Assembly: GCA_021740905.1 (NCBI GenBank)
Contig: JAIOYV010000023.1
Span: 1-64,000, forward strand
DNA length: 64,000 nt
DNA from: Bacteroidales bacterium
Lineage (GTDB): Bacteria; Bacteroidota; Bacteroidia; Bacteroidales; M50B96
Reading direction: 5' to 3'
Shown here: piece after piece, positions 193 to 46,305 of the stretch
Layout: every line of letters starts with the position of its first letter
Position numbering within the stretch: position 1 is the first letter of the stretch
Translations under genes and position numbers: made by a program
Notes under the pieces: generated by a model
What the model was told of the DNA's origin: nothing
Seen by the model: the letters and a program-made list of their open reading frames with translations, nothing else
Database searches by the model: none

Positions 193-215
193 TTTTGCTG
201 TTTTAAAAAGCGATG

Positions 216-2865: not shown

Positions 2866-2950
2866 AACTTTTATTTTGCGCGTAAAAATAAATAAGTATT
2901 TTCATCAAAAATTATTGAGGATTGTGAAAGTGAAAAATATATATAAAGCA

Positions 2951-11052: not shown

Positions 11053-11121
11053 AATATATTTTGTATGATATTGATATAATGATAATTAATATGTATTTTA
11101 GGATCTCTTGCAAAGAGATTA

Positions 11122-11145
11122 GAGCCGGTGAAAAGCCGGCTTTTG
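11122..11145 (+). terminator. Terminator after the pepP pair
   Basis: GCCGG (11124-11128) pairs with CCGGC (11136-11140), followed by TTTT. A second small hairpin CTCTT-gca-AAGAG lies just before (11105-11117). Confidence 0.6.
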
Positions 11146-11772
11146 TATTTGGGCTTTCTGATGCTTGGATTGAAAAAGGAAGGAAACTCGAATAATTGTA
11201 TAAATATTTATATATTAGTGACTTGTGATTTTGATTGAGCCTGTTGAGATTTTATTTATATCAATAAAAAGGACAGAAAAGGAATAGTTTTAAAAGTTTG
11301 TAGACAGATGAGAAAATTACAGAGCATTGTATCATTAGCATTTGTGGATGGCTGAATTATAGTGTGTTTCGTTGAGAAATAGAGCAAGGTCAATAGGCTA
11401 AAACCTACTGTTTTCAGGGCATATTATAAATAAAACATCAGATTTAATGAGGGTTTGCACAATGTTTTGCAATAAAAAAATAAAAAAGGGAGGTTGTTAT
11501 TTTGAAAATATTTTTTTATGTTTACTCTTTATTATAGAGGGAATGTTTTTTGACGGAAAAGTTTTATAAGTTGCAATAATAACAGCCTTGTTTGCAGGGC
11601 GGTAGTATAGAATTATGGAAGAAATAATTTCGTGCATAAAGAGCAAAATATTGCGTAAGATTTACGCTTTTCCGGCATTTTGAATTTTAACAAGGATGGA
11701 TTCAGCAGAAAATAGAAAGAATATAAATAGTAATAAATTAGTAAAACTAATCAATAATTTAAATTTTGAATT
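11146..11772 (+). promoter_or_regulatory. Long AT-rich leader region before the first giant gene
   Basis: About 630 nt with no supportable gene. It is very AT-rich with many short homopolymer runs. I found no convincing TTG-N20-TAnnTTTG promoter. Near its 3' end a perfect hairpin GCGTAA-GAT-TTACGC (11653-11667) is followed by TTTT, about 105 nt before the start codon, which looks like a small attenuator or terminator. The length is unusual for this window, where most spacers are under 250 nt, so it probably holds the regulation of the giant locus. Confidence 0.35.
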
Positions 11773-14700
11773 ATGAGAATATCTACTAGAAGGAGCGATT
11801 TGCCAGAGGGTAAATCACTAATTGCAAAAGTAAGGTATCTCGGCCTATTTGTGCCGGCCCTATTACTTTTGATGAGTTATCAAACGGCTAATGCCCAGTT
11901 TTCTTTGAGTGTCACAGTGCAATCAAATTACAATGGGGAAGACATTCGTTGTTTTGGTGGTAGTTCTGGAATCGCAAAAGCTACTCCGACGGGTGGTGTT
12001 ACTCCCTATACATATTTATGGAGTACCGGCCAAACAACGCAGTTAGCAGATGGATTGGCTGCCGGAAATTATAGCGTGACAGTGAAGGATGCTACTTTAG
12101 CAACCCTTTCCGGATCAATTACGCTTAATAATCCTCCGGACTTTGACGGAGCTGCCTCCATATTAGTGCCAATTAGTTGTTATGGCATGTGTGATGGATC
12201 GGTTACCGTAGATGTCAACCCTGCCATGCCTGGTGTTACTCCTTATGTTTACCTTTGGGGAACTGGGGAAACCAGTAAAACAATTATCAATGCTTGCCCT
12301 GGATATTACAGTGTGGTGGTTACCGATGCCAATGATTGTATTATAGACCCTAATCCTGAAGTATATTTAAGTGAACCCAGCGAAATTCAAATAGCTGCTT
12401 TCCCTAATAATGTTTCATGCAATGGGGGGAATAATGGATCAATAAGCCTTATAGTGGTAGGCGGGACCCCTCCTTATTTTTACACATGGAATACAAGTGC
12501 GACAACCTCAAGCATAAGCAACCTTACAGCAGGAACATACACAGTGACTATTGATGATACTGATGGATGTTCGAATACGAATTCATTTACAATTACACAG
12601 CCTACTGCAATTGCGATTACGACTGTTTCTACACAAGATGTTCTTTGTTATGGAGTTAATACTGGTGCTGCCGATATTTCAGTTGCTGGTGGAACATCTC
12701 CTTATACATATCTTTGGAGTACTGGAGCTACCACACAAGATGTGAGCGGGTTATCTTCAGGAACATATACCGTGACAGTTACTGATTTTAAAAACTGTCA
12801 AAAAACGGGTAGTGTTACTATAAATGCAGCCACTCAATATTCTATTATTACAGATAAACAGGATGTTACTTGTAATGGTAATGGAGATGGTTATATACAC
12901 CTTACCGTTTCGGGGGGGACCATGCCTTATATATTTAATTGGTCGAATGGTGCAACCATCGAAGATTTAGATAATTTATCAGGGGGATCTTACTCTTATA
13001 CCATTACTGACAATAATGGTTGTATTGCCAATGCCACTGTAGTGGTTGATGAAGCTTCTTCACTGGTAGCAGGTATTACTGCAACAAATGTTCTTTGTTT
13101 TGGGAATATGACCGGAATGGCCAATCTCACTGCTTCAGGAGGTAATGCACCATATACTTATAGCTGGACAAATAGTGCCACCACTGAAGATTTGATCAAT
13201 GTTGCAGCTGGAGCCTATCAGGTTACTGTGACCGATTTAAATAATTGTCAAGTAACAGCAGCTACTTTTATTACTCAGCCAGCAATCTTAGTAGCCACAG
13301 CTAGTGCAACAAACCTTCAATGCTACCACGATAATTCGGGTGCTGTTTCTTTAGTCGTAACAGGTGGAGTTGCATCCTATTCATATAATTGGTCGAATAG
13401 CTCGACACTTGGTAGTTTGAATAATGTAGCAGCCGGAACTTATAGTGTAACTGTAACCGATAGCAATAATTGTACAGCTACTGCTGAAGCTATTGTAACC
13501 GAACCTTCTGAATTTTATGCTTCTATAACAGGAACCAATGTAAACTGCCAAGGCAATGCCAATGGTGCTGCCGATTTAAGCATAGTAGGTGGGACTCCCC
13601 CTTACTCTTACCTTTGGGGTGGTGGAGAAATCACAGAAGATTTAACAGGCTTGTCGGGCGGAACCTACAGCGTTACCGTTACCGATGCTAATAATTGTAC
13701 TGCTCAAGCAAGTGTTCAGATATTGGAGCCAGCTACCCTTACCTTAAGTCTTACACAAGTAAATATACTTTGTAATGGCAATTCTACTGGTTCTATTAAC
13801 TTAACAATTTCAGGAGGTAATCCAAATTTCACAATACTCTGGAGCAATGGTGCTGTCACTGAAGATTTGACCGCTATAGCTGCAGGTCCTTATTCGGTAA
13901 CCGTAACCGATGCAAACGGATGTGTTGCTACAGCTGGAACCATAATTACTCAACCAGCATTACTAGTAGCTACAGCAAGTGCTACCAACCTGCAGTGTTT
14001 CCAGGATAATACAGGTGCTGTTTCTTTGGTTGTGACCGGAGGTGTTGCACCATATTCTTATATCTGGTCAAATACATCGACACTTGGAAGCCTAAATGGA
14101 TTGGCTGCCGGAACCTATGATGTGACTGTTTCTGATGCTAATGGTTGTACTGCCAATGCAGGTGCCACTGTTACTCAACCCGCAATTTTGGCAGCATCCA
14201 TAGCAGGAACCAATGTCAATTGCAATGGCAATGCTAATGGAGCTGCAGATTTAACTGTAACAGGAGGGACTGCTCCCTACACCTATCTTTGGGATGGCGG
14301 TGAAACTATTGAAGATTTAGCTGGTTTGTCGGGCGGGACTTATAATGTTACCATAACCGATGCCAATAACTGTACAGCACCTGCAAGTGTTGTTATTGTT
14401 GAGCCAGCTGCCCTTACTTTAAGTCACACACAAGTGAATATTTTATGTAATGGTAATTCTACCGGTTCTATTGATTTAACAATTGTTGGCGGAACAGCTA
14501 GTTACACAATAGCCTGGAGCAATTTAGCCAATACAGAAGATTTAAGCTCAATACCTGCCGGTCCATATTCAGTTAATGTAACTGACATGAATGGATGTGT
14601 TGCCACATTAGGTACTATCGTAACTCAACCAGCTGTTTTAGTTGCTACAGCAAGTGCAACTAACCTACAGTGTTACCAAGATAACACAGGAGCTGTTTCT

Positions 14701-17700: not shown

Positions 17701-20700
17701 TTGTCGGGTGGATCATATAATGTAACCGTAACCGATGCCAATAATTGTACTGCTCAAGCAAGCGTTGTTATATTCGAACCAACAGCAATTACTTTAAGTC
17801 TTAACTCACCCGCATGTAACGGATTTGAGATTTCGCAATTTGGTGCTAGCACAGGCATTATTAATACTACTGCCGGTGGTGGAACTGGAACTTTGCATTA
17901 TTTGTGGTCAAATAGTGCAACTACTGCATCTTTGAGTGCTTTACCAGCAGGTACCTATACTCTCACAGTGACCGATGATAATAATTGTACAAAGACAGGA
18001 AGTATTACATTAGATCAACCCCCTGCCTTGTTGATTACAGTTAGTTCGGTTTCCAATGTAAAATGCTACGGGGGTAGCTCCGGTGCTATTACCATTAGTG
18101 TTAACGGAGGGGTACCAACCTATTCATATACTTGGTCGAATGGTGCAGGAACTGCGAATCTTACAAATGTTCCAGCTGGAACATACACGCTTACTGTTAC
18201 TGATTTCTGTGGTGGAATTGCTACTGTAACAAGAACAATTACACAGCCTTTGCAAGCATTGACAGGTATTCTTATTGATACCGATTTCCTATGCTATGGC
18301 GATGATGATGGAAGCCTTTATGCTAACGCATCAGGTGGTACTTCACTTTACACTTTCCAGTGGTATCGTCAGTCGAATATGAATAACATGCTATACTCAC
18401 AGGCTGGAGTAACAGAATCTACTTATGATAATTATGGTAATGGTTTGGGCCCTGATAATTATTGTGTCGTAATAAAAGATGCCAATAATTGTGTTGTTAC
18501 ACGTTGTGCATTGATCGATACAGTCCCTCAAATTGTAGTTACTTTGGTTGATTCAGCCGAATATCCTATTGGCCCCGGCCCTTACAAATATGATGTAAGT
18601 TGCTATGGTGCCAGCGATGGATGGTTAGATATAACTGTTTCAGGAGGAACTCCTTTTGCACCAGCTCCAGAGTATGAATATAACTGGGGAAATAATTATG
18701 CCACAACGCAAAATGTGACTGGTTTATGGGCTGGAGCATGGGGTGTCCATATTTATGATGCCAACGGTTGTGAATTTGTTTGGCAGAAAACACTTAAACA
18801 GCCAGCTGCTATTACAACTATAGTGCAAAGTACGCATGATATAACCTGTTATGGAGATAATGATGGTGCAGCTCAAGTTATTGCAACTGGAGGAGCCGTT
18901 GGAACTACATTCTCATATCTATGGAGTCCCGGCGGACAAACTACTGCTGCGATTTCTGGATTGACTGCTGGTAATTATTGTGTCAGTGTTACAGATAATT
19001 TAACTGGTTGTGGAGTGTTTGATGCAGGTTCCGGTGTGGCCTTCCCAGCAAATTGGAATTATGGGCCAACAGGGACTAATCATACTGTCCTTGTACCAAC
19101 CGCAGCTGTTACAATAGATGGCACCCCACTTATGATAGGTGATTATATTGGTGTATTCTATTTGGATGGGACCACGCTTGGCTGCGCAGGTTATTCCAAG
19201 GTCTTAGGGGACTCTACTCTTATTGTTGTTTGGGGAGATGATAATTTGACTCCAGCTAAAGATGGTATGGATAATTTCGAGGCATTTACCTTTAGGTTAT
19301 TCCGTCCGTTTATTGGTGAATTTGTAACCAACAATCCTTTAAATCCAACAACCTATAACAATACGTATGATCCGCTCACATTTATAGATGGATATTTTTC
19401 AGTTGTTACAAATTTGGCTTCATTGGATCATTTACCTGTTTCTTCACTTTGCATTTACATGGATCAGCCCGATCTTCTTACCTTATCGGCTGCTCTTACC
19501 CATGTAGATTGTAATGGTAATATTAATGGTGCAATTAACCTAACAGTGATGGGTGGAACTGCCCCATATACCTATTCATGGGTAGGCCCAACTCCATTCA
19601 CTTCAGCAATGGAAGATTTAGTTGGTTTGGCCGCAGGTATGTACTCTGTAACTGTTACCGATGCACATGGTTGTATTGCAACAGGAGGTTGGACACTTAC
19701 TCAACCACTAAATCCGCTTAGTGTTTCATTGATTGGCACTAATGTGACATGTAATGGAGACGGAGATGGAGCAATCGATGCTACCATCGCTGGAGGGACT
19801 GCACCTTATAGTGTAGCATGGAGCAATGCAGCTGTTACCGAAGATATTTCAAGTTTAATACCTGGTATGTACACCATCAATGTTACTGATGCAAATGGAT
19901 GTACTACCAGTGCTTCTTATACTGTTACCGAGCCTGGTGTTCTGACTGCAACAGCGGTTATTACTCATGTTGTATGTAATGGTCAGTCAAATGGTGCTGT
20001 TACTCTAACTGTTAGCGGTGGTACTCTACCTATGAGTTATCTTTGGAGCAATGGAGCTGTAACGAAAGACATAAGCGCGCTTCAGGCTGGTAGCTATACT
20101 GTTACAATAACCGATGATAATGGATGTGTTTTCACTGCTACTTATGTAGTTACTGAGCCTAATGCTTTGGCAATTGTTGAAACAATCCCATTACATAGTG
20201 GATATGCTATTTCCTGTAATGGTGGTTCTGATGGAGCTATAAGTATTGTCGTTTCTGGTGGAACCGCACCATACACATATTTATGGGAAAATGGCGCTAC
20301 TGGAACATCTCGGACAGGTCTATCGGCCTTGACTTATTCAGTTACTGTAACCGATGCACATAACTGTGTTGCTATTGAAACATATACTTTAACACAACCA
20401 TCTCCAATTCAGTTTTCCGAAACACATATAAATGTTGATTGTTTTGGAAATGCTACAGGATCAATAGATCTTTCCGCTACGGGTGGTGTTGACAACTTTA
20501 TTTATTCATGGTCGAATGGTGCTGCTACGCAGGATATTTCAAGCTTAATTGCAGGAACATATACTGTTACTGTAACCGATGATAATAACTGTCAAGCAAC
20601 ATTCAGTGTCACGATTACTGAGCCTTCCCTTCTTGTAGTGACAGAAACACTCACACATGTTGATTGCAACGGAAATAATACGGGTGCAATTAGCCTAGCC

Positions 20701-23700
20701 GTAACCGGTGGTACTCTATCATATTCATTCCTTTGGAATGACGCATCCACTTTGCAGAATAGGACTGGCTTGATTGCCGGTACTTATGCTGTAACTGTTA
20801 CCGATGCAAAAGGATGTATTGTTATGGAAACATACATTCTTACCCAACCCGATGCAGTAATAGTAAACACAAGCATGAGTGCTGTTGATTGCTTTGGTAA
20901 TAGTACTGGATCGGTTACTGCTACGGTAACTGGTGGAAATGCTCCTTACGATTATGTTTGGAGCAATGGTACTACCAATTTAGCTGCTGGAGCTACCGAT
21001 ATGATTTCTAATTTGGCTGCTGGCAATTATTGTGTGACTGTTCACGATGTCAATGGATGTCCTACAATTCCTACTGCTGGAGCAACTCCACCATGGGCAG
21101 TACCTCCTACAAATACGTATGTAAGCCATACAATTTTGGTTCCTGCCAATATTCCAACCTTTGCCGGTGCACCCATTGTGTCTGGTGATTATCTTGGTGT
21201 ATTTTATAATAATGGTACTTCAATGGTTTGTGGAGGTTATGTTCAATATTTAGGAACTAGCACGACATTCTCTGCATGGGGAGACGATCCGTTTACTCCT
21301 GCAATTGATGGGTTTACCTTGGGCGATGTATTTGTCTGGAAAATATGGAGACAGAATGTTGGGGAATTTGATGCTGTAGCTACTTACCAAGCTATTGGTG
21401 GAACTATTACCGATACAGATCAATTTAATAATTCTGGTTTTGCCACTAGTGGATTGGCTTCGTTAGCTGAAAGTCCAATGGTGAACTTTATTTCTTGCAT
21501 TACAGTTACACAACCAACTTTGCTGACTGTTGTTGCAAATAGTGTCCCTGTAGTATGTAATGGCGACTCGACTGATATTTCTGCTGTTGCTTCAGGAGGA
21601 ACCCCTCCTTATACTTATGTTTGGAACACTACTCAATCAGGTTCTCCAATTGTTAATATTGCCGGGACTTATGTTGTAACAGCCACAGATGCTAATTTAT
21701 GTACTGCAACTGCAACTGTTACTGTTGCTGATCCTGCATTATTGGTACTTGCAAAATCGCAAACTGAAGTATCCTGTTTTGGTGGTAGCGATGGTACTGC
21801 TACTCTTACGGTAACAGGTGGTTATACTCCTTATGCTTATTTATGGTCGACTGGTGGTAATACAAATTCCATTAGTGGATTAATTGCTGGTACATACACA
21901 GTTACTGTTACTGATTTTGGCGGTTGTATTAAAACTGAATCCTTCACTATAACTGAACCAGGACAAATTGTTGTTACAACAACAATGACTCCGACTACTT
22001 GTTATGGAGGAAGCAATGGGACTGCTACTGCAGCTGTTACAGGTGGCACAGCTCCTTATAATTATTTCTGGAGCAATGGTGCAACCACCTTCAATATTGG
22101 TAATCTTACTGCAGGAACATATTGTGTTACGATACTTGATGCGAATGGATGTCCTGGCACTTCAACCGCTGGTACGGTTGTTCCTTGGACTTATACCAAT
22201 ACATTATTAGATCAGACTATCTTAATACCTATAAGTAGCCTTGATTTTGGTGGCGGACCTTTATTACCTGGTGACTACATCGGTGTATTCTTCGATGACA
22301 ATGGAACTCTTACCTGTGGTGGTTATGTTGAGTATACGGGAGTCAACACAGCAGTTCCTGCTTATGGCGACGATACGCAAACAACACCTAGTGTGAAAGA
22401 TGGATTTGATCTAAACGAAAGTTTTGCATGGAAAGTCTGGAGACCTAATTTAGGTGAATTTGACGCTGTTGCATCTTATAACGCTATTGATGGTATATTA
22501 TTTACAGCCGGAGGTTCTTATATCGGCACAGGAGAAACAAGTGGATTACAAACCTTGACAGTTGATCTTGGTTCTGTTGCTGTTTCTTGTGTACTGGTTA
22601 CCGAGCCTACCGAAGTTACAATTACTGGAACCTTATCTACCTTCGCAGGTGGTTGGAATATATCCTGTTTTGGTTATTCCGATGGTTCGATCAGCCTAAA
22701 CGTAACAGGTGGAACTGGTCCTTATGCCTATGGATGGTCAACTGGTGCAAGTACTCCAAATGTTAATAATCTCACTGCAGGTACATATACTGTTACTGTA
22801 GCTGATATCTATGGATGCTTGCAAACTGCTAGCTTTACCTTAGTTGAGCCTGCTCAATTAGTAGCAACAGCCTACATAACATCATGGTACGATGTAACAG
22901 GAAATGGTAATTTTTATAATACTCATTGTAATGGGGCTGACGGTAGTGCTTATGTAGAAGTTACCGGTGGTACACCTACGTACTCCTATTTATGGGCTCC
23001 AGGTGGTATGACAGATGATTCACTTACTACTATGGTTGCCGGTACATACTATGCCGATGTTTTGGATGTGAATGGTTGTACTGCACAAAGCAATACTATC
23101 ACTCTTACATCACCCGGGCCATATAATGTAGTGGCTACCCAGATTGATTCTTTATCATGCTATGGCGATTGCGATGCTTCTATCAATGTAACATGGAGTG
23201 GCGGTATCCCACCATTCGATGTGTACTGGAGCAACTGGAGCGGTGCACCAATTATCGATACTGCTACACATTCACTTACATTCCCATATTGTTATTGCCC
23301 ACTTCCAAATTGTAGTCATCCTGGATTCTGTGCCGGAACCTACTGGGCAGTGGTAGTCGATTCAATGGGTTGTGCTGTATTGACAAATCAGGTAACCGTA
23401 GTTCAACCTGACCCGATTGTTTTAGCACCTGGACTTACCAATGTTTCCTGCAATGGGTTAAGTGATGCGTTTATCGATCTTTCACAAACAACAGGTGGAG
23501 TTACTCCTTATGTATTTGTTTGGGATGCTTCAACAAATTATGCAACCACAGACATGCTTACTGGTCTTTCAGCAGGTGATTCACATTATGTGATGGCTTG
23601 GGACGGAAATAATTGTGCTTTTGGTGAACAATTTGATGTTACAGAACCTGCACTATTAGTAATTAATTCGGCAGTTGGAAGCAACGTGTTATGTACAGGA

Positions 23701-27828: not shown

Positions 27829-27847
27829 TATTGCAAACTAAATTAAA

Positions 27848-27877
27848 TAATCGGATGGCATTTTTGCCATCCGATTA
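27848..27877 (+). terminator. Strong hairpin between the two giant genes
   Basis: A perfect 13-bp stem (27848-27860 with 27865-27877) with a TTTT loop lies 20 nt after the first giant gene's stop and 24 nt before the second's ATG. No T tract follows on the plus strand, so partial termination, processing or mRNA stabilisation are as likely as full termination. Confidence 0.5.
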
Positions 27878-27901
27878 TGTAATTCTAAAAATATAAGCAT
27901 T

Positions 27902-36900: not shown

Positions 36901-39900
36901 TTCAAATGGTTGCATGGGTACAGGTAGCATTCTTGTTACCGAACCACCTGAGTTGACCGCTACTGTTTCAACAACAAATATTACCTGCTATGGATATAGT
37001 AATGGTACAGCTACTGTATCTCCTTTGGGCGGTACACCTCCGTATGATTTCTTATGGAGTAACAATGCAACCACTCAAACTGTGACGAATCTTGGACCCG
37101 ATCTTTACTCAGTGTGGGTGTCGGATGCTAATGGTTGTGTTATTGTTGTTGCTGATTATGTAGTTGAGCCAGCTGACTTGCTTTTATCAGCCACAGTTAC
37201 CTCAGATTTTAATGGTTATGGAGTGAGTTGTTTTGGAGCTAGCAATGGTTCTGCATCGTTGACTAATATGGGTGGTATTCCACCTTACACAGTGCTTTGG
37301 AGCAATGGTGCTACTACAAACTCGATAAGCAATTTGGTTGCTAATACCTATACTGTTACTGTAACTGATATGAATGGTTGTATTAAAGATACCAGTGTGA
37401 TTATTACGCAGCCCAACCCATTGCTAGGTGGTCTGAACAGTCCTTTGCATACAACCTATAACATTAGCTGTTTTGGTGGCTCAAATGGTGCTATAACTGT
37501 AAATGTAAATGGTGGTGTTCAACCCTATATTTATGTGTGGTCGAACGGTGCAACTGGAACAAACATTACTGGTCTACCAGCAGGTTCTTACTCTGTTACT
37601 GCTACCGATGCGAACGGTTGTTCAATATTCTTTAATAAGACTCTTACACAGCCTGCCTTGTTAGAAGCAAACGCATCTGTCAACATTCAATATAATGGCG
37701 AAGATGTTAGCTGCTTCGGCGGTTCAGATGGACAAGCTATTGTAAATGTTACTGGAGGTGTAAGCCTTAGTACAGTTTTATGGTCGAATAATGCCAATAC
37801 ATTAGTAGCGATTGGGTTGTCGGCAGGAAACTATACTGTCACCGTGACCGATAACAATGGTTGTACGGCAAATTCAGCGGTAACACTTACCGAGCCTATT
37901 GCTATTACCGGTTCTTCCATGGTTACTTCAAGTTATGGTACATATGGTACACATATCACTTGTTTTGGATCGACCGATGGTTCGGCATACGCAACTGCAA
38001 CAGGTGGAACAGGCTTATTATCTTATCAATGGGATTCTTCGCCGGTTCAAAATTCTGACACTTTAGTTAATGTTGGTGCCGGTATATACACTGTATCTGT
38101 TACCGATGCCAATGGTTGCTTGTTTACTTCTTCGGTTGAAATACTTAGTCCGGATGAAATTGTACTTTCTGCCTCTGTTACTTCCGATTACAACGGACAG
38201 GATGTTTCCTGCTATGGTTCATCAGATGGTGAAGGTACTGTTGTTGCAACTGGCGGGACTGGGACATTGTCCTATTTATGGAGTTCTGGTGCAGTAACTT
38301 CGGTTGCTACTGGATTGTCTGTAGGTACCTATTCAGTTACTGTTACCGATGAAAACGGATGTTTTGCTACCGCTTCTATTACTTTAACTGAACCAACTGT
38401 GGTTGCCGGGTCTTTAGAAGTAACTTCAAAAGCTCTTTTCCATGGACGTGATGTTTCATGCAATGGTGCTTCTGATGGTTCTTTGGCGGCTGTTAATGTT
38501 TCCGGAGGAACTCCTCCATACACGTATGCTTGGAGTACAGGTGGAACTGATGATGAAATCTTTGGTCTATCGGCAGGGTTTTACGCCTTGACTATCTACG
38601 ATGCCAATTTATGTCCAATCAATCCTCCTTTATTCAAACAAATTGTAAATCCCCCTGTTCTTGTTATCAATGCTACCGCTGCAGATTGCTTTGCCGGTAG
38701 TAATGGATGGGCTACTGCCACACCAGCTGGAGGTACAACACCTTATACATATAGCTGGTCCAATGGTCAAACCACCCAAACAGCTACAGGTTTAGTCGCA
38801 GGATCTTATGATGTTACTGTAACCGATGTAAACGGATGTACCGAAACACATAATTATATTCTTTCACCACTTCAGGTGTCGGGTGTAATTGCAGATATCG
38901 ACGGGTATTCGGTAAGTTGTTTTGGAGGATCTGATGGATCGATTGATCTCAGTCCTATTGACGGGGTTACTCCTTATTCATTTAGTTGGGATACCGGTGA
39001 AAATACGGAAGATGTTTCCGGTCTTATGGCTGGTATGCATTATGTTTCTGTAACGGATGATATTGGATGTCTTGTTGTAGACTCGTTCTTATTGACAGAA
39101 CCCGATCCAGTACAAGCAGAGGCAAGTGTCACCAGTAACTACAATGGTTATGATATCAGTTGCCCTGGAGCAATGAATGGGGCTGTTACAGTAGATGTAC
39201 TTGTTGGCTTCTCTCCATATACTTATCTTTGGAGTACAGGATCGACAAATCAAAATGTCAGCTACCTATTGGCTGGTACATATACAGTCACTATTACGGA
39301 TAATCATGGTTGCGAGGGAACTGCTTCGGTTACTTTGGAAGATCCTACCCCAATGGGATACACTGCAGTTGTAACGGATGCTGCATGTAATGGTACAGCA
39401 ACCGGTAGTATTGATATTACTGTATCGGGTGGAGCAACTCCTTATTTGTATTTTTGGAATTTTGGTGCACATACTGAAGATGTCAGCAACTTGACAGCAG
39501 GTACTTATTATGTACTTTTACTTGATGCAAACATGTGTTTCATTCCAAGCGAAGTGTTTGTTCTTGGACAACCTACTACTCTTATGGCCAATGCCGTGGT
39601 GACTACCGATTTCGATGGATATGGGGTGAGTTGCTTTGGTGCTGCTGATGCAGGTATCGATTTGACCGTGAGCGGCGGTACTACACCTTACGACTATGCT
39701 TGGAGCAATTCAGAAAGTTCAGAGGACTTAACGAATGTTGGAGTTGGTTCGTATGAAGTTACGGTAACTGATTTCATGGGTTGTTCTGTAATCGTTTCAG
39801 TTCAGGTTACCGAACCCGATTTATTTGTTGCTACTGCTCTTATCGATACTGATTTCAACGGATATGCTGTTAGTTGCGATGGAGCTACCGATGGCGAAGT

Positions 39901-42900
39901 TTCTGTGACATTAGACTACGGTTTTGCACCATTTACTTATCTCTGGAGCAATGGAAGCACTGAGGCTGCACTTATGGGTGTCGGCGTAGGTACTTACGAT
40001 GTAACAGTAACCGATAACCATGGATGTGTTTCTATGTCGTCCGTTACTTTAACAGGTGCTGATATGCTCACCATTTCTGCTTCTATTATGTCTGATTTCA
40101 ACGGATATTCGATAAGTTGTAATGGTGCTGCCAATGGTGAAATCATGACAACTGTTGCTGATGGAACTTCTCCCTATACCTATATGTGGAGCAATGGTGA
40201 AACCACCATGGACATTACCAATGCAATGGCCGGAGACAATACGGTTACTGTTACTGATGCTAATGGATGTACTGCTATAGCCACAGTAACTTTGACCCAA
40301 CCTGATGCATTTACTGCTACAGCTGTAAGTGGGATATTATATAATGGTGGCGCCCAAATTTCATGTCCTGGCGAAAGCGATGCTTCAATTGATCTTACTG
40401 TGATCGGTGGAGTTGCTTCAGTCGATTACTTGTACGCTTGGTCAAATGGTGAGACCACTCAAGACCTTACAGGGCTTGGTGCTGGAATTTATACTGTGAC
40501 AGTGACAGATGATAATGGATGTGTTACTACCGCTTCTCTTACTATTGTAGCACCTACTCCTGTTATATTGAATGTGTCAGTGTTCAATACTCCTTGCTAT
40601 GGAACATATTATGGATCGGCTACTGCCAATGCAACTGGTGGTACACCTCCTTATAACTTCTATTGGAGCAATTATGCCACTACTCAGTCAATCACTGCGA
40701 TGAATAGTGGGACTTTCTATGTGTATGCACTCGATCAGAACTTGTGTGCTTCCAATTCATATCCTGTCACTTTTGTTGAACCTACTGAATTGGTAGTTAC
40801 TTCAAGTATTGTAGGAACAAATAATTGTAATGGAAATACAAACGGTGCAATCGAACTTGCAGTTAGTGGTGGTACTCCATTCAATGTGGCTCCTTTTTAT
40901 ACTTATTCATGGGTGAAAACAGGTCAGGCTGGTATTTATGCGACTACTAAAAACATCAGTAATCTTGCCGCCGGTACTTACACTTGCACCATTAAGGATG
41001 CAAATAATTGCACGAAGATAGTTTCTGAGACAATTACCCAGCCCGCTTTAATTTCACTTCAGTTGGTTGAAACTCATGTGAATTGTTATGCAGAAGCTAC
41101 CGGTTCAATAATGGTTACTGTTACAAATGGTGTTCAGCCTTTAACTTACAATTGGTCGAATGGTGCAACCGTAGAGGATCTCGTAAATATTACTGGCGGG
41201 TTCTACTTCCTCACCGTTACCGATGCAACAGGCTGTACTGCAATTAGTGGTAAGTTTATTAGCGAGCCAAACGAGTTGATCTTATCGCTTGTTACAACTG
41301 ATCCTTTTTGCAACGGTTCAAGCAATGGTAGTTTGAATTTAAGTGTTTTCGGCGGATCTGCACCATACTCTTATTTATGGACGAATGGTGCAACGACTCA
41401 GGATATTTCTGGTTTAGCTGCCGGATTCTATGAGGTTACTGTAACCGATAGCCATGGTTGTACAGAAAGGATTGATGATATTCTGGTTGAACCAGATGTA
41501 TTAGCCCTTACCATGACTGGTATTGATGTGAACTGCAATGCAGGTGGAAACGGTACCATTGATCTTACGGTTACCGGTGGAATTTCACCTTATTCCTATA
41601 ACTGGAATAGTGGCTTTGCTACCACTGAGGATATTTCCGTAAGCACTTCTGGTACTTATGATGTAGTGGTTACTGATGCTAATGGTTGTACTGCAAGTGG
41701 AAGTCAAACACTTGGAACTGCTAGTGCTATCAGTTTGGCATTTACTGGTACAAATGTAAGTTGTAATGGTGGGGCAAATGGTTCTCTCAGTGTGGCAATA
41801 ACCAATGGTGTAGCTCCTTATGCTATTATGTGGTCAGGCCCTGGAATCGGACAAGCTACAACGTTCGATTGGACATACAACAATACAGGATCGAACCACA
41901 GCATACTTGTTCAGAGTACCATTAGTTCTAATATCGGTGGTGTTCCGTTAGCTGTTGGTGATTACATTGGGGTATTCTACAACGATGCCTTAGGAATGCT
42001 TCAATGTGGTGGTTACTTTGAATGGTCAGGTAACTCAGTTGCATTAGCTGCATGGGGTGCCGATGTTGGTTTTGATGGTTTTGCATCTGGTGAAACCTTC
42101 AAATGGAAAGTTTACCGTGCTTCCGATGGTATGGAATTCGATGCTGAAGTTAGCTACATGACAATGGCAAATGGCGATACATATATTACAAACGGAGTCA
42201 GTGGAATTAGTTCGATTACTGCCGGAATGGGCAACTCTATTAGTGGCCTTGCAATCGGAACTTATACAGCAACTATTTACGACGCCGCAGGATGTTATGG
42301 AGTTGGAACTTATACCATTACGCAACCTTCAGCTATAATAGCCAATGCCTCAGTACATAATGTCACTTGCAATGGCTTGAACAATGGATGGATTAGTTTA
42401 GTTGCTCTGGGTGGTGTTCCACCTTACACGTATAATTGGTCAAATGGAGTAACTACTCTTAATCCACAAAATCTTGCTCCTGGTGTATATTCAGTTACTA
42501 TCACAGATGCAAATGGTTGTACTAAAATCCCGGCACCGGTAACAATTACCGAACCTGCCGTATTAGATTTTACCTGGACAACTACAGATGTTGTTTGTAA
42601 TGGACAGTCGAATGGAACAGCCATGATCGACATTACTGGCGGTACAGCTCCTTATACTACCAACTGGGCTGGATTCAATCCAAATGCTTTGGCTGCTGGA
42701 AATTATACAGTGATTGTTAGCGGAGTCAATGGTTGCTCGGTATCTCATACAATAGCAATCGGTCAACCCGATGTAATCGCAATTACTGACATGATAACCA
42801 ACATAAGTTGTTATGGTGCTCAGGATGGTATGATAGATATTTCCGTAATAGGAGGTATTACACCTTACATGTACTCATGGTCGAATGGTGAGACTACCGA

Positions 42901-45900
42901 AGATCTGTCAGGACTTGATGTAGGTATGTACGACCTTACAGTTACCGATGCTAATCTTTGTGTTATGATGGCTAGTTATTCAATAACTCAGCCCGATATG
43001 CTTACTTTATCAGGTATGGAAACTGATCTCTTGTGCTACAATGTTCCAATAGGAGCTATAGACGTGACTGTTGATGGCGGTACAATGCCTTATACTTTTG
43101 CATGGTCGAACGGTGAAACCACCGAAGACCTGAGCGGGTTGTATGCCGGTATGTATGCACTTACTGTTACCGATGCCCATGGCTGTATTATAGATATGAG
43201 CTTCGACATAATGGAACCTGCCGAATTGATGATTACTGGAGCAGTAGTTACTGATGTAACTTGCTATGGTGGTTCCGATGGAGCCGTAGATATTACCGTA
43301 GATGGTGGCGTTATGCCATACTCATTCAACTGGTCGAACGGCGTAATGATGGAAGATATCGATATGCTTGTTGCAGGTACTTACGATGTTACTGTTACTG
43401 ATGCAAATGGATGTTCAGTTATGGGTACGTACATTGTGAACGAGCCTCTCGAAATTATCCTTGTCGGATATGTGACTAATGTTTCCTGTTATGGATTCGC
43501 TGATGGTGCTATCGATCTGACCGTAACCAATGGAGTTGCTCCGTTTGCTTACGCATGGTCGAATGGTGAAGCCACTGAAGATATTGCTGGTTTGCTCGCT
43601 GGAAATTATGACGTAGTTGTAACCGATGCGAATGGATGTGCTATAAGTATGATGTATACAATTACACAGCCTGATGAACTGGCTATCACTTCTGTTGTAA
43701 CTAATGTAAGTTGTTATGGTATGGGTGATGGTTCAATCGACATTGAAGTGTATGGTGGTACATCTCCTTATACATACGTATGGGGCGGATTAGAAAGTGT
43801 TGACTTCGACTGGGATTACACAAACACCGGTACAAACCACACTGTCGTGATAAGCAATGCAACACCTATCAACCTCAATGGTACAGGTATCGCAGTTGGC
43901 GATGTGATTGGAGTATTCTACGATTCACTTGGAACCCTTGTATGTGCTGGATATGTAACCTGGACAGGTGCCAATACGAATGTGGCTGCCTGGGGCGCTG
44001 AACTTAATCAGAGTACAGGACAGACCATTATGAATGGTTTTGCCATCAGTGAAGAATTCATGTGGAAAGTATGGCAAGCTTCAACGGGTATTGTTTACGA
44101 TGCCGTTGCTGATTACTTACCTGGATTCCTAGACAGTATGTATTATGTAACTGATGGTTCAAGCGGACTCGCTTCACTTACCGGAACAATCCCTTATGAA
44201 TTCACTGGAAGTGCACAAGACCTCTTCGGCTTATTGCCTGGTGCTTATCATGTTCTTGTAACTGATGACCACGGATGCGAATTGGAAGAGGACTTCATTA
44301 TATCTCAGCCTGATGAAATTATAGTTACTGGAGTTATGAGTAACTTTAGTGGATTTGGTGTAAGTGCTTGTGGTGCAAGCGATGGTGCGATTAATCTTAC
44401 TGTAACAGGTGGTGTGGCTCCGTTGAGCTTTGCATGGTCAAATGGTTCAAGTCTTGAAGACCTTGCTGGTCTAGATGCAGGGACATACACAGTTAATGTA
44501 AGCGATGCCAACGGATGTATGGGGTATGCTTCATTCGAAATAACCGAATTCTGTGATGTTCTTTACCTTGGTACTGTTCCAACTCATGTATCTTGCAATG
44601 GAGCAAGCGATGGTAGCATTAATCTTACTCTAACAGGTGGATTAGCGCCATTTACAATTCTCTGGAGCAACGCCATGAACAGCGAGGATATTTATGGGTT
44701 AGCTGCCGGTACTTATACCGTAACTGTAACCGATGCTTATTCGCAAGTAGTAGTAATCAGTGAAACGATTACTCAACCAGACGCATTGGCACATACCGCG
44801 AACATTTTTAATGCTACTTGCAGCGGATGTTCCGATGGTGCTATTGATATTACAGTTTCTGGTGGCACTACTCCCTATTCGTATGCATGGTCGAATGGTG
44901 CTGTTACCGAAGATGCAACTTTGCTTCCTGCCGGTTTATATGGTGTCCAGGTTACCGATGCAAATGGTTGCACATACTATGCTAACTTTGGTATTACTGC
45001 ACCTTTACCCTCGCCTTTAGAAATCGTTTCTATTGTACCAACAAATATTGTATGTGATGGAGCTTCAACTGGAGCTATTGACCTTACAGTTTCTGGTGGT
45101 GTAACACCTTATGGCTATCTCTGGTCGAATGGTGCAACTACTATGAATTTAGCAAACTTATCTGTTGGAACATATACTGTAACTGTAACTGATAATGCAA
45201 GTGCTGTGGTAACAGGAAGTGCTACTGTTGTTCAAATCGGAACAGCCATGAGTTCAACTTATGTGGCCACACCGGCTTCTTCGTGTAATTCTGCCGATGG
45301 TAGTATTGATTTGAGCCTTACTGGTGGAACTGGACCTTACAGTTACTTGTGGAGCAACGGAGCAACTGTCGAAGATCTTACCGGAATTATGGCAGATTCT
45401 TATGACTTAACTGTGACTGATGCAAATGGTTGCGAATATTTCACCACTGCTAATGTGGATGCACTTGGGATGATAGCTTCGGCTTTGGTTTCAAACAATG
45501 TTTGTTATGGCGATGCAAATGGTCAAATCCTATTATTCGTTTCACAAGGATTACCACCCTATACCTATCTATGGTCCAATGGTGGTACCGATTTCGTTAT
45601 CAACTCTCTTACACAAGGTTCCTACGTAGTAACGATTACCGATGCAGGTGGATGTACTCTTGTAGAAACCTATGCAATTGTTGACCCTGCTCCGATTGTT
45701 GTTACCATAACACCTAATGCAATTGGTTTATCTGCAACAGTGATTAGTGGAGCTGTTGGTAGTTACACTTATATGTGGTCGAACGGTAAGCCTTATCAAA
45801 GCATTAAAGGCTTGACCATTGGACAATCTTATTGTGTTACTGTTACCGATTCAAACGGATGTACTGGCGTTGCTTGTGCAACATGGCAAACAGCCCCAAC

Positions 45901-46210
45901 TGTTGCACTTAATGGCAGTAACCATAAGAATGAGGAATCAACAGTTGTAGAGGATCAGAGCATCAATCTCTATCCGAACCCAACCAAAGACGGTAAGTTC
46001 TATATCGACCTAACTAATCTTGACTTCGAGTCGCTCGTATTTGAAGTAATGGATGCTACAGGAAGAGTAATTTACAATCAGAAAGTTGAGGACAATATCA
46101 ACAGAAACATCTTTGTTGAGATTGAAAATGCAACAGTCGGTGTTTACTTCCTGAAGGTAATAACCGATGCAAATGCAATAGTTACCAAGCGCATTGTTAT
46201 TGTAAAATAG
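27902..46210 (+). CDS. Giant multidomain SprB-repeat surface protein with T9SS sorting domain (6102 aa)
   Basis: Signal peptide 1-20 (cleavage near SAQ). Residues ~21-1380 alternate jelly-roll modules of the MAM/choice-of-anchor type (recognisable by ...PY.EDFE....W..GG.NSSWELG..., AIDD or FDDI ends) with CARDB-like domains (DIGVTAWTSPMTGC...VEVKNFGSQTITSFDIYYTLDG). Four SprB repeats follow (~1380-1829), then more jelly-roll/CARDB pairs (~1830-2645), three Ig-like domains (LGADV.IC.G.SA.LDAG...YLWSDGS, ~2650-2860), then about 36 SprB repeats (~2860-6000), and a type A T9SS sorting domain (SINLYPNPTKDGKF to KRIVIVK, ~6020-6102). Three guest domains are inserted in SprB repeats near 1522-1663, 4648-4780 and 5295-5433. 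Probably a very long cell-surface adhesin or glycan-binding fibre acting with its neighbour. A clear terminator follows. Confidence 0.9.
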   Translation: MRRIYLIFTVLVLATIGMSAQNILFEEDFESSAPGWSTDGSPGVSDWQIGTDLSSTGFTIPAHTFYAASNDNACVCNLISDIYISPEISFGSASGLKVSFDSYLPNPYASGGFTDSKGYIMVLQGSTWTQVAEVTANTNWTNVEISLDGFVSGNAKLGFKHSDQGASTTGWAIDNVVVSAQWDYDIGVTAWTSPMTGCLPNNADVVLEVKNFGSQTITSFDIYYTLDGVNSSVQTVSQIMLSGDTYSHSFNVTLDLSVGVEHTFNATIALNGFTDQGAGNNSFGSDVLVKRYATLPFSFVEGFAANESYYWSLDANTNGNAQFVNETVKLTGNGAIGWVGGINTTTASNAWNDNTSYHSMLELTCNSGMVAAVPENLELVFDLRQETHYSLKYCWFGVFVNGTQIANTLGTLNFNPLTQNSDPWQEQTFNLSAYAGTAFTIELKASCQYADDMVLLDNVVIRPRNEQDAGVSQIIDPKSNCGLASVNNITVVVKNYGVESISNIPVWYTIDGVVTEYYAGTVPGPILAGGVSTPAVFPAKPTPGLENVGPHQFTAFTKLPGDIYFPGNDALTIVVTNLPVISDFPYSQDFESVGYWTPGGVNSSWELGTPNPLNPVINVAGSGANSWMTNLNGNYNNDENSYLLGPCFDFTTMTDPSIDFKIWYHTDAYTDGLQLQSSVNNGSTWEVVGTSYPAPNLDNWYNYSDVSEFGTGQPAWTDVSGGWILAHHSLASLAHEPNVKLRFVFKSDGDNLGGNPQVVQDYDGIAIDDISISDPQATNDIRVMEWLSPLGGYYMSANEVVSIRVKNLGLNTITSFSAYYSLDGGVTNTTPETFTVNIATNDYAIVNFSQTADFATFGTYPCEVTVVLPADENALNNMVSLNVVSLPSISMFPYYEDFQTVDHFWTAGGTNSSWEFGIPAGSTIPVDPGDINPALDSAWVTNLDGVYNNNEFSWVESPLMDFTSLIIPAISMRIAYDAEGFVNDGACVQYSIGGGAWTTLGTLGVPPNNENWYINFVDGLAGEPGWTDYSNGWKLATQDLPIALGGQTDVKIRVLFGSDANTVLEGMAFDDVMIFENAPHDLAVTEWSSQTVACGLSTQEIVTVKIDNLGYFDESNFQIKYTVNGNSVTETVSATILAFSSDYFSFATPVDMSAPGVYTCSVEIITADNDMGNNLLTKSILSSPLISSFPYLEDFEGGNGNWVSGGTNSTWDLGAPNAINPFISTAGSGVNSWVTNLNGDYSPLEESYVESPCFNFQNIGWPAISFQFISDCEFYSSTFGFDGAILEYSTDGGYMWDRVGNLGDTTNWYNVPQVWSFGNTEAWGAQSTGWVTAGIDMFYLGGEPNVKFRFKFASDDYNYPAGSHYDGFGFDDIFVFNNAPYPILTYTSIDNICYLGTNGSIDVTITGGNPPFTFVWGDGATTEDRSGLAAGTYNVTLTDANLNVVDTFMTIGQGAPYYATVNVTQDVLCFGGSNGALEVVVATGNPPYTYLWDNGATDAIATGLMAGTYCVTVWDADGCVAQGSSNIGQSYDWGYSNSLVSHNILIDVTAQITVDGTPVNPNEYLIGAFYDNGGVLECAGYAQWSGAVAVFELAGQDYQMPDGFASGEAFTWKMYRIADGVTLDATATYNYPDTYFTGGNFVDGGFTSIAMLDGTASMPSSSTSVCGTLSEPDDLVLTLIPSNYGGFGISCNGGNNGQIVASTIGGTAPYSYAWSNSVIGANNNGLIAGTYTVTVTDGNGCTKDGSITLTEPALLTISTLVTDVSCNGYSDGAIHLTMGGGVMPYTYSWNTGANSPALVNVPAGSYLVTVTDANGCSITAGATLMQSVLLPLQENFEAGVLPAGWESTHATPSVGWEFGNNLGTPITFEIPSHTIYAGSNDDKWDDYTAMVNDASMDYLITPPMDLMGYSSVNLTFDAFFSNSFYGSVATIEISLDGGATWTVIHTLSTDANWQEDLVVSLSAYVNMCNVRLAFHHNDNGNWASGFAIDNVNIIGTVHDLELTAWVSPTGENCGLTNSEQVSIQVTNLGAQAATGFDLYYILNGTTYTETYNGSLAPGAMMTYTFAPIDLTAFVNYTASAGLSYALDTENGNDMITGIMFGNHPTISIPYLEDFEDNEMEYFGQTVGADATLNIVNDGSNSTLVVTGQNPNAGWFGGINATANDAWNLSTSHQVSALTWCSVDATGLSSLELLIDLQQMFANVPNNSWFRVLVNGVQVGPDYNPSSQTDPMQTIQWDLDAYAGTIFNLTLQFSNRSLDDKVIIDNIILREKIVDVAAVAITSPMASCQYSSTEVVTVSLENLGGLTASGFDVVLNIDGSIITETYNGVAIIPGGFGTHTFAATADLSVNGPHTISVDVNIANDVNAANDVATLNLLSTPYYNTYPFAETAANFGSFWTAGGTNSSWVFGTDTWSTVLNSGSYFNDEMSWVVSPCFDFSTLISPVIELDLSYLTEINLDGAMLQYSTDGVTWNTIGAQGDNDNWYNTANGWSGNSGGIITVRHELFGLAGMSNVQFRMYFNSDYATNAVGISFSNVEIYEQNDIGAVASAPAGVCEGSDFSVDITIQNFGYSVIPAGAVIDVQYTLNGNTVNEMIALSSSLNPGGTAMLNFATVENMMAGTYSIDATATMVADFNASNNAMVTGSIMIYALPVVSLGADVNICNQASAILDAGTWNAYLWSDGSTDQTLTVSAAGTYSITVTDANGCMNSDEIAVGIYPLPIVDLGADVAFCDGLSATLDAGQFVSYLWSDGSANQTLAVSTAGTYTVTVTDSNGCQNSDAIVVSVYPLPSADAGLDQTICFGESATLTASGGDIYVWNNGETTASIVVAPAVTSTYTVVVTETTNGCSASDDVVVNLNYGPVIDNAVVTDVTCYGYNNGAIALSVSGGVTPYTYIWSNAASSFALSNLAPGTYTVTITDGGSCDEIASFVITEPAPVLVTVIDISQNVGYGISCFNTNDGNVMALSTNGIGTLSYLWSNSATTQAIDNLSPGNYTVTVTDSNGCMGTGSILVTEPPELTATVSTTNITCYGYSNGTATVSPLGGTPPYDFLWSNNATTQTVTNLGPDLYSVWVSDANGCVIVVADYVVEPADLLLSATVTSDFNGYGVSCFGASNGSASLTNMGGIPPYTVLWSNGATTNSISNLVANTYTVTVTDMNGCIKDTSVIITQPNPLLGGLNSPLHTTYNISCFGGSNGAITVNVNGGVQPYIYVWSNGATGTNITGLPAGSYSVTATDANGCSIFFNKTLTQPALLEANASVNIQYNGEDVSCFGGSDGQAIVNVTGGVSLSTVLWSNNANTLVAIGLSAGNYTVTVTDNNGCTANSAVTLTEPIAITGSSMVTSSYGTYGTHITCFGSTDGSAYATATGGTGLLSYQWDSSPVQNSDTLVNVGAGIYTVSVTDANGCLFTSSVEILSPDEIVLSASVTSDYNGQDVSCYGSSDGEGTVVATGGTGTLSYLWSSGAVTSVATGLSVGTYSVTVTDENGCFATASITLTEPTVVAGSLEVTSKALFHGRDVSCNGASDGSLAAVNVSGGTPPYTYAWSTGGTDDEIFGLSAGFYALTIYDANLCPINPPLFKQIVNPPVLVINATAADCFAGSNGWATATPAGGTTPYTYSWSNGQTTQTATGLVAGSYDVTVTDVNGCTETHNYILSPLQVSGVIADIDGYSVSCFGGSDGSIDLSPIDGVTPYSFSWDTGENTEDVSGLMAGMHYVSVTDDIGCLVVDSFLLTEPDPVQAEASVTSNYNGYDISCPGAMNGAVTVDVLVGFSPYTYLWSTGSTNQNVSYLLAGTYTVTITDNHGCEGTASVTLEDPTPMGYTAVVTDAACNGTATGSIDITVSGGATPYLYFWNFGAHTEDVSNLTAGTYYVLLLDANMCFIPSEVFVLGQPTTLMANAVVTTDFDGYGVSCFGAADAGIDLTVSGGTTPYDYAWSNSESSEDLTNVGVGSYEVTVTDFMGCSVIVSVQVTEPDLFVATALIDTDFNGYAVSCDGATDGEVSVTLDYGFAPFTYLWSNGSTEAALMGVGVGTYDVTVTDNHGCVSMSSVTLTGADMLTISASIMSDFNGYSISCNGAANGEIMTTVADGTSPYTYMWSNGETTMDITNAMAGDNTVTVTDANGCTAIATVTLTQPDAFTATAVSGILYNGGAQISCPGESDASIDLTVIGGVASVDYLYAWSNGETTQDLTGLGAGIYTVTVTDDNGCVTTASLTIVAPTPVILNVSVFNTPCYGTYYGSATANATGGTPPYNFYWSNYATTQSITAMNSGTFYVYALDQNLCASNSYPVTFVEPTELVVTSSIVGTNNCNGNTNGAIELAVSGGTPFNVAPFYTYSWVKTGQAGIYATTKNISNLAAGTYTCTIKDANNCTKIVSETITQPALISLQLVETHVNCYAEATGSIMVTVTNGVQPLTYNWSNGATVEDLVNITGGFYFLTVTDATGCTAISGKFISEPNELILSLVTTDPFCNGSSNGSLNLSVFGGSAPYSYLWTNGATTQDISGLAAGFYEVTVTDSHGCTERIDDILVEPDVLALTMTGIDVNCNAGGNGTIDLTVTGGISPYSYNWNSGFATTEDISVSTSGTYDVVVTDANGCTASGSQTLGTASAISLAFTGTNVSCNGGANGSLSVAITNGVAPYAIMWSGPGIGQATTFDWTYNNTGSNHSILVQSTISSNIGGVPLAVGDYIGVFYNDALGMLQCGGYFEWSGNSVALAAWGADVGFDGFASGETFKWKVYRASDGMEFDAEVSYMTMANGDTYITNGVSGISSITAGMGNSISGLAIGTYTATIYDAAGCYGVGTYTITQPSAIIANASVHNVTCNGLNNGWISLVALGGVPPYTYNWSNGVTTLNPQNLAPGVYSVTITDANGCTKIPAPVTITEPAVLDFTWTTTDVVCNGQSNGTAMIDITGGTAPYTTNWAGFNPNALAAGNYTVIVSGVNGCSVSHTIAIGQPDVIAITDMITNISCYGAQDGMIDISVIGGITPYMYSWSNGETTEDLSGLDVGMYDLTVTDANLCVMMASYSITQPDMLTLSGMETDLLCYNVPIGAIDVTVDGGTMPYTFAWSNGETTEDLSGLYAGMYALTVTDAHGCIIDMSFDIMEPAELMITGAVVTDVTCYGGSDGAVDITVDGGVMPYSFNWSNGVMMEDIDMLVAGTYDVTVTDANGCSVMGTYIVNEPLEIILVGYVTNVSCYGFADGAIDLTVTNGVAPFAYAWSNGEATEDIAGLLAGNYDVVVTDANGCAISMMYTITQPDELAITSVVTNVSCYGMGDGSIDIEVYGGTSPYTYVWGGLESVDFDWDYTNTGTNHTVVISNATPINLNGTGIAVGDVIGVFYDSLGTLVCAGYVTWTGANTNVAAWGAELNQSTGQTIMNGFAISEEFMWKVWQASTGIVYDAVADYLPGFLDSMYYVTDGSSGLASLTGTIPYEFTGSAQDLFGLLPGAYHVLVTDDHGCELEEDFIISQPDEIIVTGVMSNFSGFGVSACGASDGAINLTVTGGVAPLSFAWSNGSSLEDLAGLDAGTYTVNVSDANGCMGYASFEITEFCDVLYLGTVPTHVSCNGASDGSINLTLTGGLAPFTILWSNAMNSEDIYGLAAGTYTVTVTDAYSQVVVISETITQPDALAHTANIFNATCSGCSDGAIDITVSGGTTPYSYAWSNGAVTEDATLLPAGLYGVQVTDANGCTYYANFGITAPLPSPLEIVSIVPTNIVCDGASTGAIDLTVSGGVTPYGYLWSNGATTMNLANLSVGTYTVTVTDNASAVVTGSATVVQIGTAMSSTYVATPASSCNSADGSIDLSLTGGTGPYSYLWSNGATVEDLTGIMADSYDLTVTDANGCEYFTTANVDALGMIASALVSNNVCYGDANGQILLFVSQGLPPYTYLWSNGGTDFVINSLTQGSYVVTITDAGGCTLVETYAIVDPAPIVVTITPNAIGLSATVISGAVGSYTYMWSNGKPYQSIKGLTIGQSYCVTVTDSNGCTGVACATWQTAPTVALNGSNHKNEESTVVEDQSINLYPNPTKDGKFYIDLTNLDFESLVFEVMDATGRVIYNQKVEDNINRNIFVEIENATVGVYFLKVITDANAIVTKRIVIVK
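32041..33380 (+). repeat. First SprB repeat block of giant protein 2 (4 repeats)
   Basis: Residues about 1380-1829: repeats starting at DNICYLGTNGSIDV, VLCFGGSNGALEV, GISCNGGNNGQIV and DVSCNGYSDGAIHL. The second contains guest domain 4. Unlike repeats 7-26 of the first giant gene, they are diverged from one another. Confidence 0.8.
32464..32890 (+). other. Guest domain 4 inside a SprB repeat
   Basis: Same domain family (residues about 1522-1663 of giant protein 2): SHNILIDVT, GTPVNPNEYLIGAFYDNG, CAGYAQWSG, MPDGFASGEAFTWKMYR. Inserted after the NGC-equivalent Cys (DADGC) with the extra Cys pair YCV/VCG. Confidence 0.72.
41842..42240 (+). other. Guest domain 5 inside a SprB repeat (alternative insertion site)
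   Basis: Residues about 4648-4780: FDWTYNNTGSNHSILV, GVPLAVGDYIGVFYND, CGGYFEWSG, AAWGADVGFDGFASGE, FKWKVYR. Here the domain follows the MWSGPG strand and precedes SGLAIGTYTATIYD, so it sits in the middle of the host repeat rather than near its end; no extra Cys pair. Confidence 0.75.
43783..44200 (+). other. Guest domain 6 inside a SprB repeat (alternative insertion site)
   Basis: Residues about 5295-5433: FDWDYTNTGTNHTVVI, GTGIAVGDVIGVFYDS, CAGYVTWTG, AAWGAELNQ, MNGFAISEEFMWKVW. Inserted after the YVWGG strand and before LFGLLPGAYHVLVTD, the same mid-repeat site as guest domain 5; no extra Cys pair. Confidence 0.75.
45960..46207 (+). other. T9SS type A sorting domain of giant protein 2
   Basis: The last ~82 residues have SINLYPNPTKDGKFYI, MDATGRVIYN, VGVYFLKVI and terminal KRIVIVK, the standard type A T9SS C-terminal domain, closely related to that of the first giant protein. 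Confidence 0.85.
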
Positions 46211-46231: not shown

Positions 46232-46258
46232 AAAAAGCCCGGTTTTACCGGGCTTTTT
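46232..46258 (+). terminator. Terminator of the giant gene pair
   Basis: 11-bp stem AAAAAGCCCGG/CCGGGCTTTTT with loop TTTTA, followed by further T residues, 22 nt after the stop codon of the second giant gene. Confidence 0.85.
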
Positions 46259-46305
46259 TTATGTCTTATTTTTATTTTGGAGTGTACTTTACAGTGATTG
46301 ATCCT

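Follow-up and report, generated by a model that had tools for sequence, protein, structure and literature searches.

The repeat family PF13573 takes its name from SprB of Flavobacterium johnsoniae, which itself carries such repeats. SprB is a gliding adhesin of 6497 residues (PMC9870892). T9SS cargo with a type A C-terminal domain exits with PorV and then either becomes anchored or is set free, while type B cargo exits with PorP/SprF (PMC12618676, PMC9143113, PMC10994853). In an exchange of tails in F. johnsoniae, SprB carrying the RemA tail was surface-bound and immobile, SprB carrying the AmyB tail was mostly released, and other proteins given SprB's own tail were directed to the gliding machinery (PMC12618676). 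The rule has exceptions: RemA has a type A tail, yet participates in gliding, and when it bore its own tail, 86% of the cells with signal showed foci that were highly mobile but non-helical and 55% showed immobile ones (PMC12618676), so that a type A tail is compatible with movement.

Two adjacent genes, A and B, are described here from a 64,000-base stretch of a Bacteroidales genome (the window). Like SprB, their products combine giant size, a probable T9SS route and SprB repeats; unlike SprB, they have type A instead of type B tails, there is no SprF/PorP gene beside them or on their contig, and they are conserved as a tandem pair. They resemble RemA as probable surface adhesins with a type A tail and a PorV route; RemA, on the other hand, has a lectin domain and takes part in gliding, and no giant SprB array is described for it in the passages cited (PMC12618676). 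A third comparison is with predicted T9SS substrates in which SprB repeats are likewise combined with a T9SS tail and which adjoin TANFOR toxin genes (PMC7073777); no TANFOR model was among the NCBIfam matches of six window sequences, which included the C-terminal half of each of the two giants. The fourth is GhpA of Aureispira sp. CCB-QB1 (PDB 9flw, 9flp, 9fly, 9g8b, 9fls), also a giant surface protein built of Ig-like bead chains. A literature search, which reached a minority of the subscription papers, returned no paper on natural SprB giants with type A tails.

Architecture of the gene pair

The first-pass annotation had reported two head-to-tail reading frames with about 100 SprB repeats. 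The frames are exactly as it gave them, and 73 bases separate A from B (Table 1). Both N-termini look like signal peptides by eye (approximately residues 1-42 of A and 1-20 of B). The repeat number also stands: PF13573 accounts for 57 stretches of gene A (31+26) and 37 of gene B (6+31), and a 74-position model made from the window's own repeats finds 62 and 46 (E<1e-3), the latter amounting to about 42 true repeats, since two repeats, each interrupted by an inserted domain, are counted twice, and two further hits resemble PKD domains by eye. Two Cys are present in 53 of the 62 gene A repeats and in 33 of the 46 gene B hits. Both proteins are strongly acidic, with 382 D+E against 58 K+R in A and 577 against 78 in B.

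Table 1. Positions in the window of the features of the A-B locus.
Feature	Position	Strand	Remarks
Gene A leader	11053-11772	+	720 bases, without an ORF of 100 aa (ORF list)
Gene A	11773-27828	+	Giant SprB-repeat ORF, 5351 aa, no internal stops
Part of gene A built of a three-repeat super-unit	13291-17790	+	Unit of 675 bases; DNA identity by lag
Inserted domain, copy A1	19036-19443	+	Profile match
Inserted domain, copy A2	21073-21504	+	Profile match
Inserted domain, copy A3	22165-22593	+	Profile match
Type A T9SS sorting domain of gene A	27589-27819	+	TIGR04183, 56.3 bits (cut-off 23)
A-B junction hairpin	27848-27877	+	13-pair stem, 4-base loop, no U-run behind
Gene B	27902-46210	+	Giant SprB-repeat ORF, 6102 aa, no internal stops
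N-terminal head of gene B	27902-32041	+	No SprB hits; one MAM-like match just under cut-off
Inserted domain, copy B1	32477-32896	+	Profile match
Second head-like block of gene B	33386-35842	+	Related to first head; CARDB and Reelin-type matches
Main SprB-repeat stalk of gene B	36275-45901	+	Pfam and own repeat model
Inserted domain, copy B2	41849-42253	+	Profile match; splits a SprB repeat
Inserted domain, copy B3	43790-44218	+	Profile match; splits a SprB repeat
Type A T9SS sorting domain of gene B	45968-46201	+	TIGR04183, 73.4 bits (cut-off 23)
Terminator-like hairpin with T-run, 3' of gene B	46232-46260	+	By eye

Gene A consists almost entirely of repeats and three inserted domains, and between residues 283 and 2006 its repeats start at an exact spacing of 75 residues. 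Over residues 207-2006 the mean DNA identity is 0.72 at a lag of three repeats and 0.50 at lags of one and two (means lowered by the first repeat, which is one residue out of register), indicating that much of the stretch is made of copies of a three-repeat unit. The period is absent from both gene A orthologues (2915 and 3035 aa, with 31 and 29 repeats); since these are also barely over half as long, the comparison suggests that the array grew recently in the lineage of the window. Gene B is organized differently along its length: a head of about 1380 residues is followed by an inserted domain flanked by two SprB repeats on either side, a second head-like block and a long stalk.

The leader of gene A contains a terminator-like hairpin at 11121-11143, which may end the pepP transcript. 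At 11308-11355 a short frame, MRKLQSIVSLAFVDG, runs by eye into a stop and resembles a relic of a signal peptide. The contig start (window 1-193) is occupied by an 80-base direct repeat in 2.4 copies, 100% identical, resembling by eye a piece of a tRNA gene; ARAGORN did not call it.

Genes so rich in repeats, in an assembly of 160 contigs, raise the question of whether the frames were joined artificially through repeat collapse. No sign of such a join was found. In neither gene does an exact DNA repeat reach 75 bases, and the same tandem pair with the same neighbours is present in another genome (G200, see below); both observations argue against an assembly artefact, to which we give almost no weight and which was rejected.

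Sorting tails and the probable export route

Type A sorting domains (TIGR04183/PF18962) lie above the curated cut-off at the C-termini of both proteins, confirming what had been read from the letters. The contig of the window (C61, 75.7 kb) has no match to PF11751 (PorP/SprF), and none of the genome's 20 matches to the type B domain (TIGR04131) falls on it; the view that the pair has neither an SprF partner nor a type B tail was therefore upheld. No T9SS component was seen by Pfam among 20 neighbouring proteins of the window, a scan that took in all but the ORFs at 2843-4048, 56298-56705 and 63113-64000.

The absence of T9SS genes, claimed earlier for the locus, thus holds for the scanned neighbours and not for the genome (6.54 Mb, 97% complete), which contains SprA (2695 bits), GldM, GldJ (459 bits, barely over the cut-off of 458.2), nine of ten PorV-family matches over cut-off, with PorV at 421 bits, and two PorU over cut-off. 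With 11 PorP/SprF matches elsewhere in the genome and 14 of the 20 type B matches over cut-off, the hint that SprF or the T9SS might be missing was rejected. Type A domains number at least 150 among 688 candidates. The second PorU sortase adjoins a PorP gene and GldJ (C65:19559-26063).

The pair has many relatives in its own genome. The contig stretches that were fetched, being those with SprB hits or with PorP/type B pairs, contain at least 39 ORFs with two or more SprB repeats, holding at least 459 repeats together (150 of 707 SprB candidates were scored in the genome); among these ORFs A and B are the richest in repeats and the second and third longest, the longest having 6331 aa (on C5). 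Further giant frames in the genome are located at C52:59369-59773 (7308 aa), C141:1443-1838 (5335 aa) and C5:58815-77810 (6331 aa), the first and the last of which exceed gene B in length.

Three of the 39 SprB ORFs end at a contig edge and ten were left out of the tail tally. NCBIfam assigned type A to 18 of 19 tails, the remaining one (C87, 1045 aa) having no T9SS tail match; seven further SprB ORFs match type B, four of them over cut-off. When only ORFs longer than 2000 aa with their C-terminus on the contig are counted, 12 of 13 are type A (one of the 13, on C139, is cut N-terminally) and a single one is type B (C67, 3113 aa). In this genome, long SprB proteins as a rule have a type A tail, and the combination seen in the pair is not unusual there. 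The classic SprB-SprF layout coexists with the type A giants: the SprB-repeat ORFs of type B on C67, C50 and C19 each have a PorP gene directly 3'.

The type A tails predict a PorV/PorU route for A and B, and not SprF, in agreement with the separate secretion and attachment route proposed for them earlier; the two proteins are probably exported by a route other than that of SprB. In the light of the published tail swap, in which SprB became immobile or was released, the pair is read as static or shed fibre adhesins, and the earlier suggestion of a role other than gliding gains support from the same experiments (PMC12618676). Alternatively, A and B could be the gliding adhesins of the organism, moved by the GldJ/SprA machinery despite their type A tails; the presence of GldJ, GldM and SprA would fit, as would the mobile foci of RemA as a precedent, but in the published swap SprB with a type A tail was either immobile or released (PMC12618676), and the type B SprB ORFs with PorP neighbours suit gliding better. 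We regard gliding adhesins of this kind as improbable.

Predicted folds of the repeat and of an inserted domain

A triple SprB repeat is predicted to fold as a row of Ig-like beads (pLDDT 95.9). The top five Foldseek hits of this model are fragments of GhpA (E 5.0e-8 to 5.6e-7), making GhpA the best fold match of the predicted structure; the sixth, NCAM, is nearly tied with them at E 5.9e-7. VIA-align likewise places 9flw first (Z 11.3, rmsd 4.1, 211 aligned), ahead of NCAM (Z 9.4), titin (Z 9.2) and further GhpA rows (Z 8.0-9.2). As NCAM and titin score close to GhpA, much of the match is attributable to the common Ig arrangement. At the sequence level no match to GhpA was obtained at E 0.1, whether by phmmer with residues 1-4999 of A and with B or with the repeat profile, a result that is still compatible with a distant relationship. 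Against PDB sequences the SprB profile gave seven matches (E 7e-6 to 0.008), namely phage neck-whisker, decoration and Hoc proteins, a '32 kDa protein' and cellulosomal scaffoldins, and gene A matched two decoration proteins (E 0.007 and 0.016).

The hooks of a predator are described as heptameric and secreted by the T9SS (PMC11205867). Going by the PDB titles, these would be the grappling hooks of Aureispira, made of GhpA. It is conceivable that the pair builds organelles of this type, cell-catching fibres such as those of the predator Aureispira, as the five leading Foldseek hits, the 9flw row of VIA-align and the existence of T9SS-secreted heptameric hooks (PMC11205867) might be taken to indicate. 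We consider this unlikely in view of the near tie with NCAM, the Z scores of NCAM and titin, and the lack of a GhpA sequence match for the queries listed above. Moreover, neither a hook-forming part nor any sign of a heptamer or a hook was found in A or B. A more elaborate version, in which A and B would co-assemble into a static, two-component organelle resembling a grappling hook and confined to one Bacteroidales family, with an RNA hairpin at the gene junction setting the ratio and the inserted domain acting as a replaceable binding module, is also given little credence.

The inserted domain has about 136 residues and is present in three copies in each gene. In 29 aligned copies the invariant positions are W, G, C, G and G, within a motif around GDYIGVFY...CGGY...DGF..GE.F.WKVW. 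There are at least 146 matches in the own genome at E 0.001 (199 candidates), in frames of up to 7308 aa and also in frames outside the SprB matches listed; in the phylum the domain is rare, being found in 8 of 198 sampled genomes at E 1e-10, the own genome included. Pfam has no name for six copies at E 10, NCBIfam returned for three copies only acylphosphatase (E 0.046, one distant copy), and a search against PDB sequences gave nothing at E 1. The predicted structure is a seven-stranded beta fold (pLDDT 91.5) with no Foldseek match at E 0.001. The best VIA-align row is the lipoxygenase 5ek8 (residues 35-189, Z 6.3), followed by a transthyretin-like chain and others with Z <5; naming the domain after lipoxygenase or transthyretin was dropped, because these matches are too weak. 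Judged by these searches, the domain is undescribed and much expanded in this genome.

Conservation of the locus and a proposed model

The head of gene B was searched in 60 genomes, its own included. A match is present in 20 of the 60 at E 1e-20, and over the full 1380 residues the head recurs in only two other genomes, G198 (44% identical) and G200 (43% identical), which belong to the family of the window and to a different genus; a third genome of the same family (G199, 90% complete) has no full-length gene B head. The locus in G200 reads sdhBAC-pepP-pepP-A'(2915 aa)-B'(5089 aa)-CN hydrolase-icd, matching the order in the window, and G198 has the identical order up to the contig end inside gene B; the pair is thus seen in two further genomes, both from a single genus. 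The three tails that can be read (A' and B' of G200, A'' of G198) are all type A.

Outside the family the location is not shared in the loci compared. Of 80 named pepP loci, 68 extend 3 kb or more beyond pepP (10 kb being the most that is visible), and in none of the 68 does a SprB array follow pepP; for these loci, conservation of the location beyond the family was rejected. The order sdhB-sdhA-sdhC-pepP-pepP is kept in 10 of the 80 loci, without giants in the DNA visible (8 of the 10 with at least 3 kb downstream), so that the pair seems to have been added specifically in this family. In two Marinifilum loci (L071, 11661-21389; L076, 11660-21385) a giant ORF of >3240 aa lies directly 3' of pepP and runs beyond the locus end; with one SprB hit each, an Ig-like appearance by eye and a weak alignment to gene A (23-24%), it is by this comparison a different protein at the equivalent position. 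A SprB ORF with nine hits is located upstream of pepP in L097.

The hairpin between A and B is conserved with the pair. It has counterparts at the A-B junctions of L201 (2831-2860) and L203 (7731-7760), giving three genomes in all, with folding energies of -21.3 to -21.6 kcal/mol. Across these three sequences the outer 11 pairs of the stem are identical, and 2 of the 13 pairs, both inner, differ but stay paired (compensatory changes). The window holds a single instance of the core pattern, against 0.00 expected in window shuffles, and among 206 loci the pattern is confined to these A-B junctions; its ten-base arm is found at five other sites, always without a partner. No T-run follows the junction hairpin, in contrast to the hairpin 3' of gene B. 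No known RNA family matches the window at gathering level, the best sub-gathering match of the hairpin having E 0.047. With moderate confidence, we propose that the junction hairpin is an RNA element tuning the amount of gene B product relative to that of gene A.

An inverted repeat so nearly perfect, known from three sequences, which are too few to tell an RNA element from an operator, might instead be a DNA operator or a terminator, A and B then being adjacent genes of common origin that do not work together. The identical outer pairs and compensatory inner changes, the missing T-run and the same gene order in two genera speak against this explanation, which we consider rather doubtful, though deserving of attention.

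We favour, at a probability of roughly two in three, the reading of A and B as a conserved two-gene module encoding giant acidic bead-chain surface fibres that are exported by PorV/PorU and are static or shed. The two proteins would enter the periplasm by means of their signal peptides and leave through SprA; PorV would pick them up by the type A tail and hand them over to the PorU sortase, which would remove the tail, so that the fibre is either fixed to a surface glycolipid or freed into the medium. The Ig-like SprB beads would form a stalk, a few hundred nanometres long if straight (estimated from the usual size of an Ig domain), with the head of gene B distal to the C-terminal anchor; this head and the inserted domains are the putative ligand-binding parts. 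Given the type A tails, we expect adhesins that stay in place or matrix fibres that are shed, in neither case carried on gliding tracks as SprB is, and the junction hairpin probably tunes the output of gene B relative to gene A.

In the F. johnsoniae swap, SprB with a type A tail leaves the gliding track and is fixed or free (PMC12618676), and A and B resemble a natural version of this arrangement on a giant scale. Retained in two genera of the family, the pair offers a direct test of whether the fate of a SprB fibre depends on its tail, and the unnamed domain and the hairpin provide two additional concrete objects of study.
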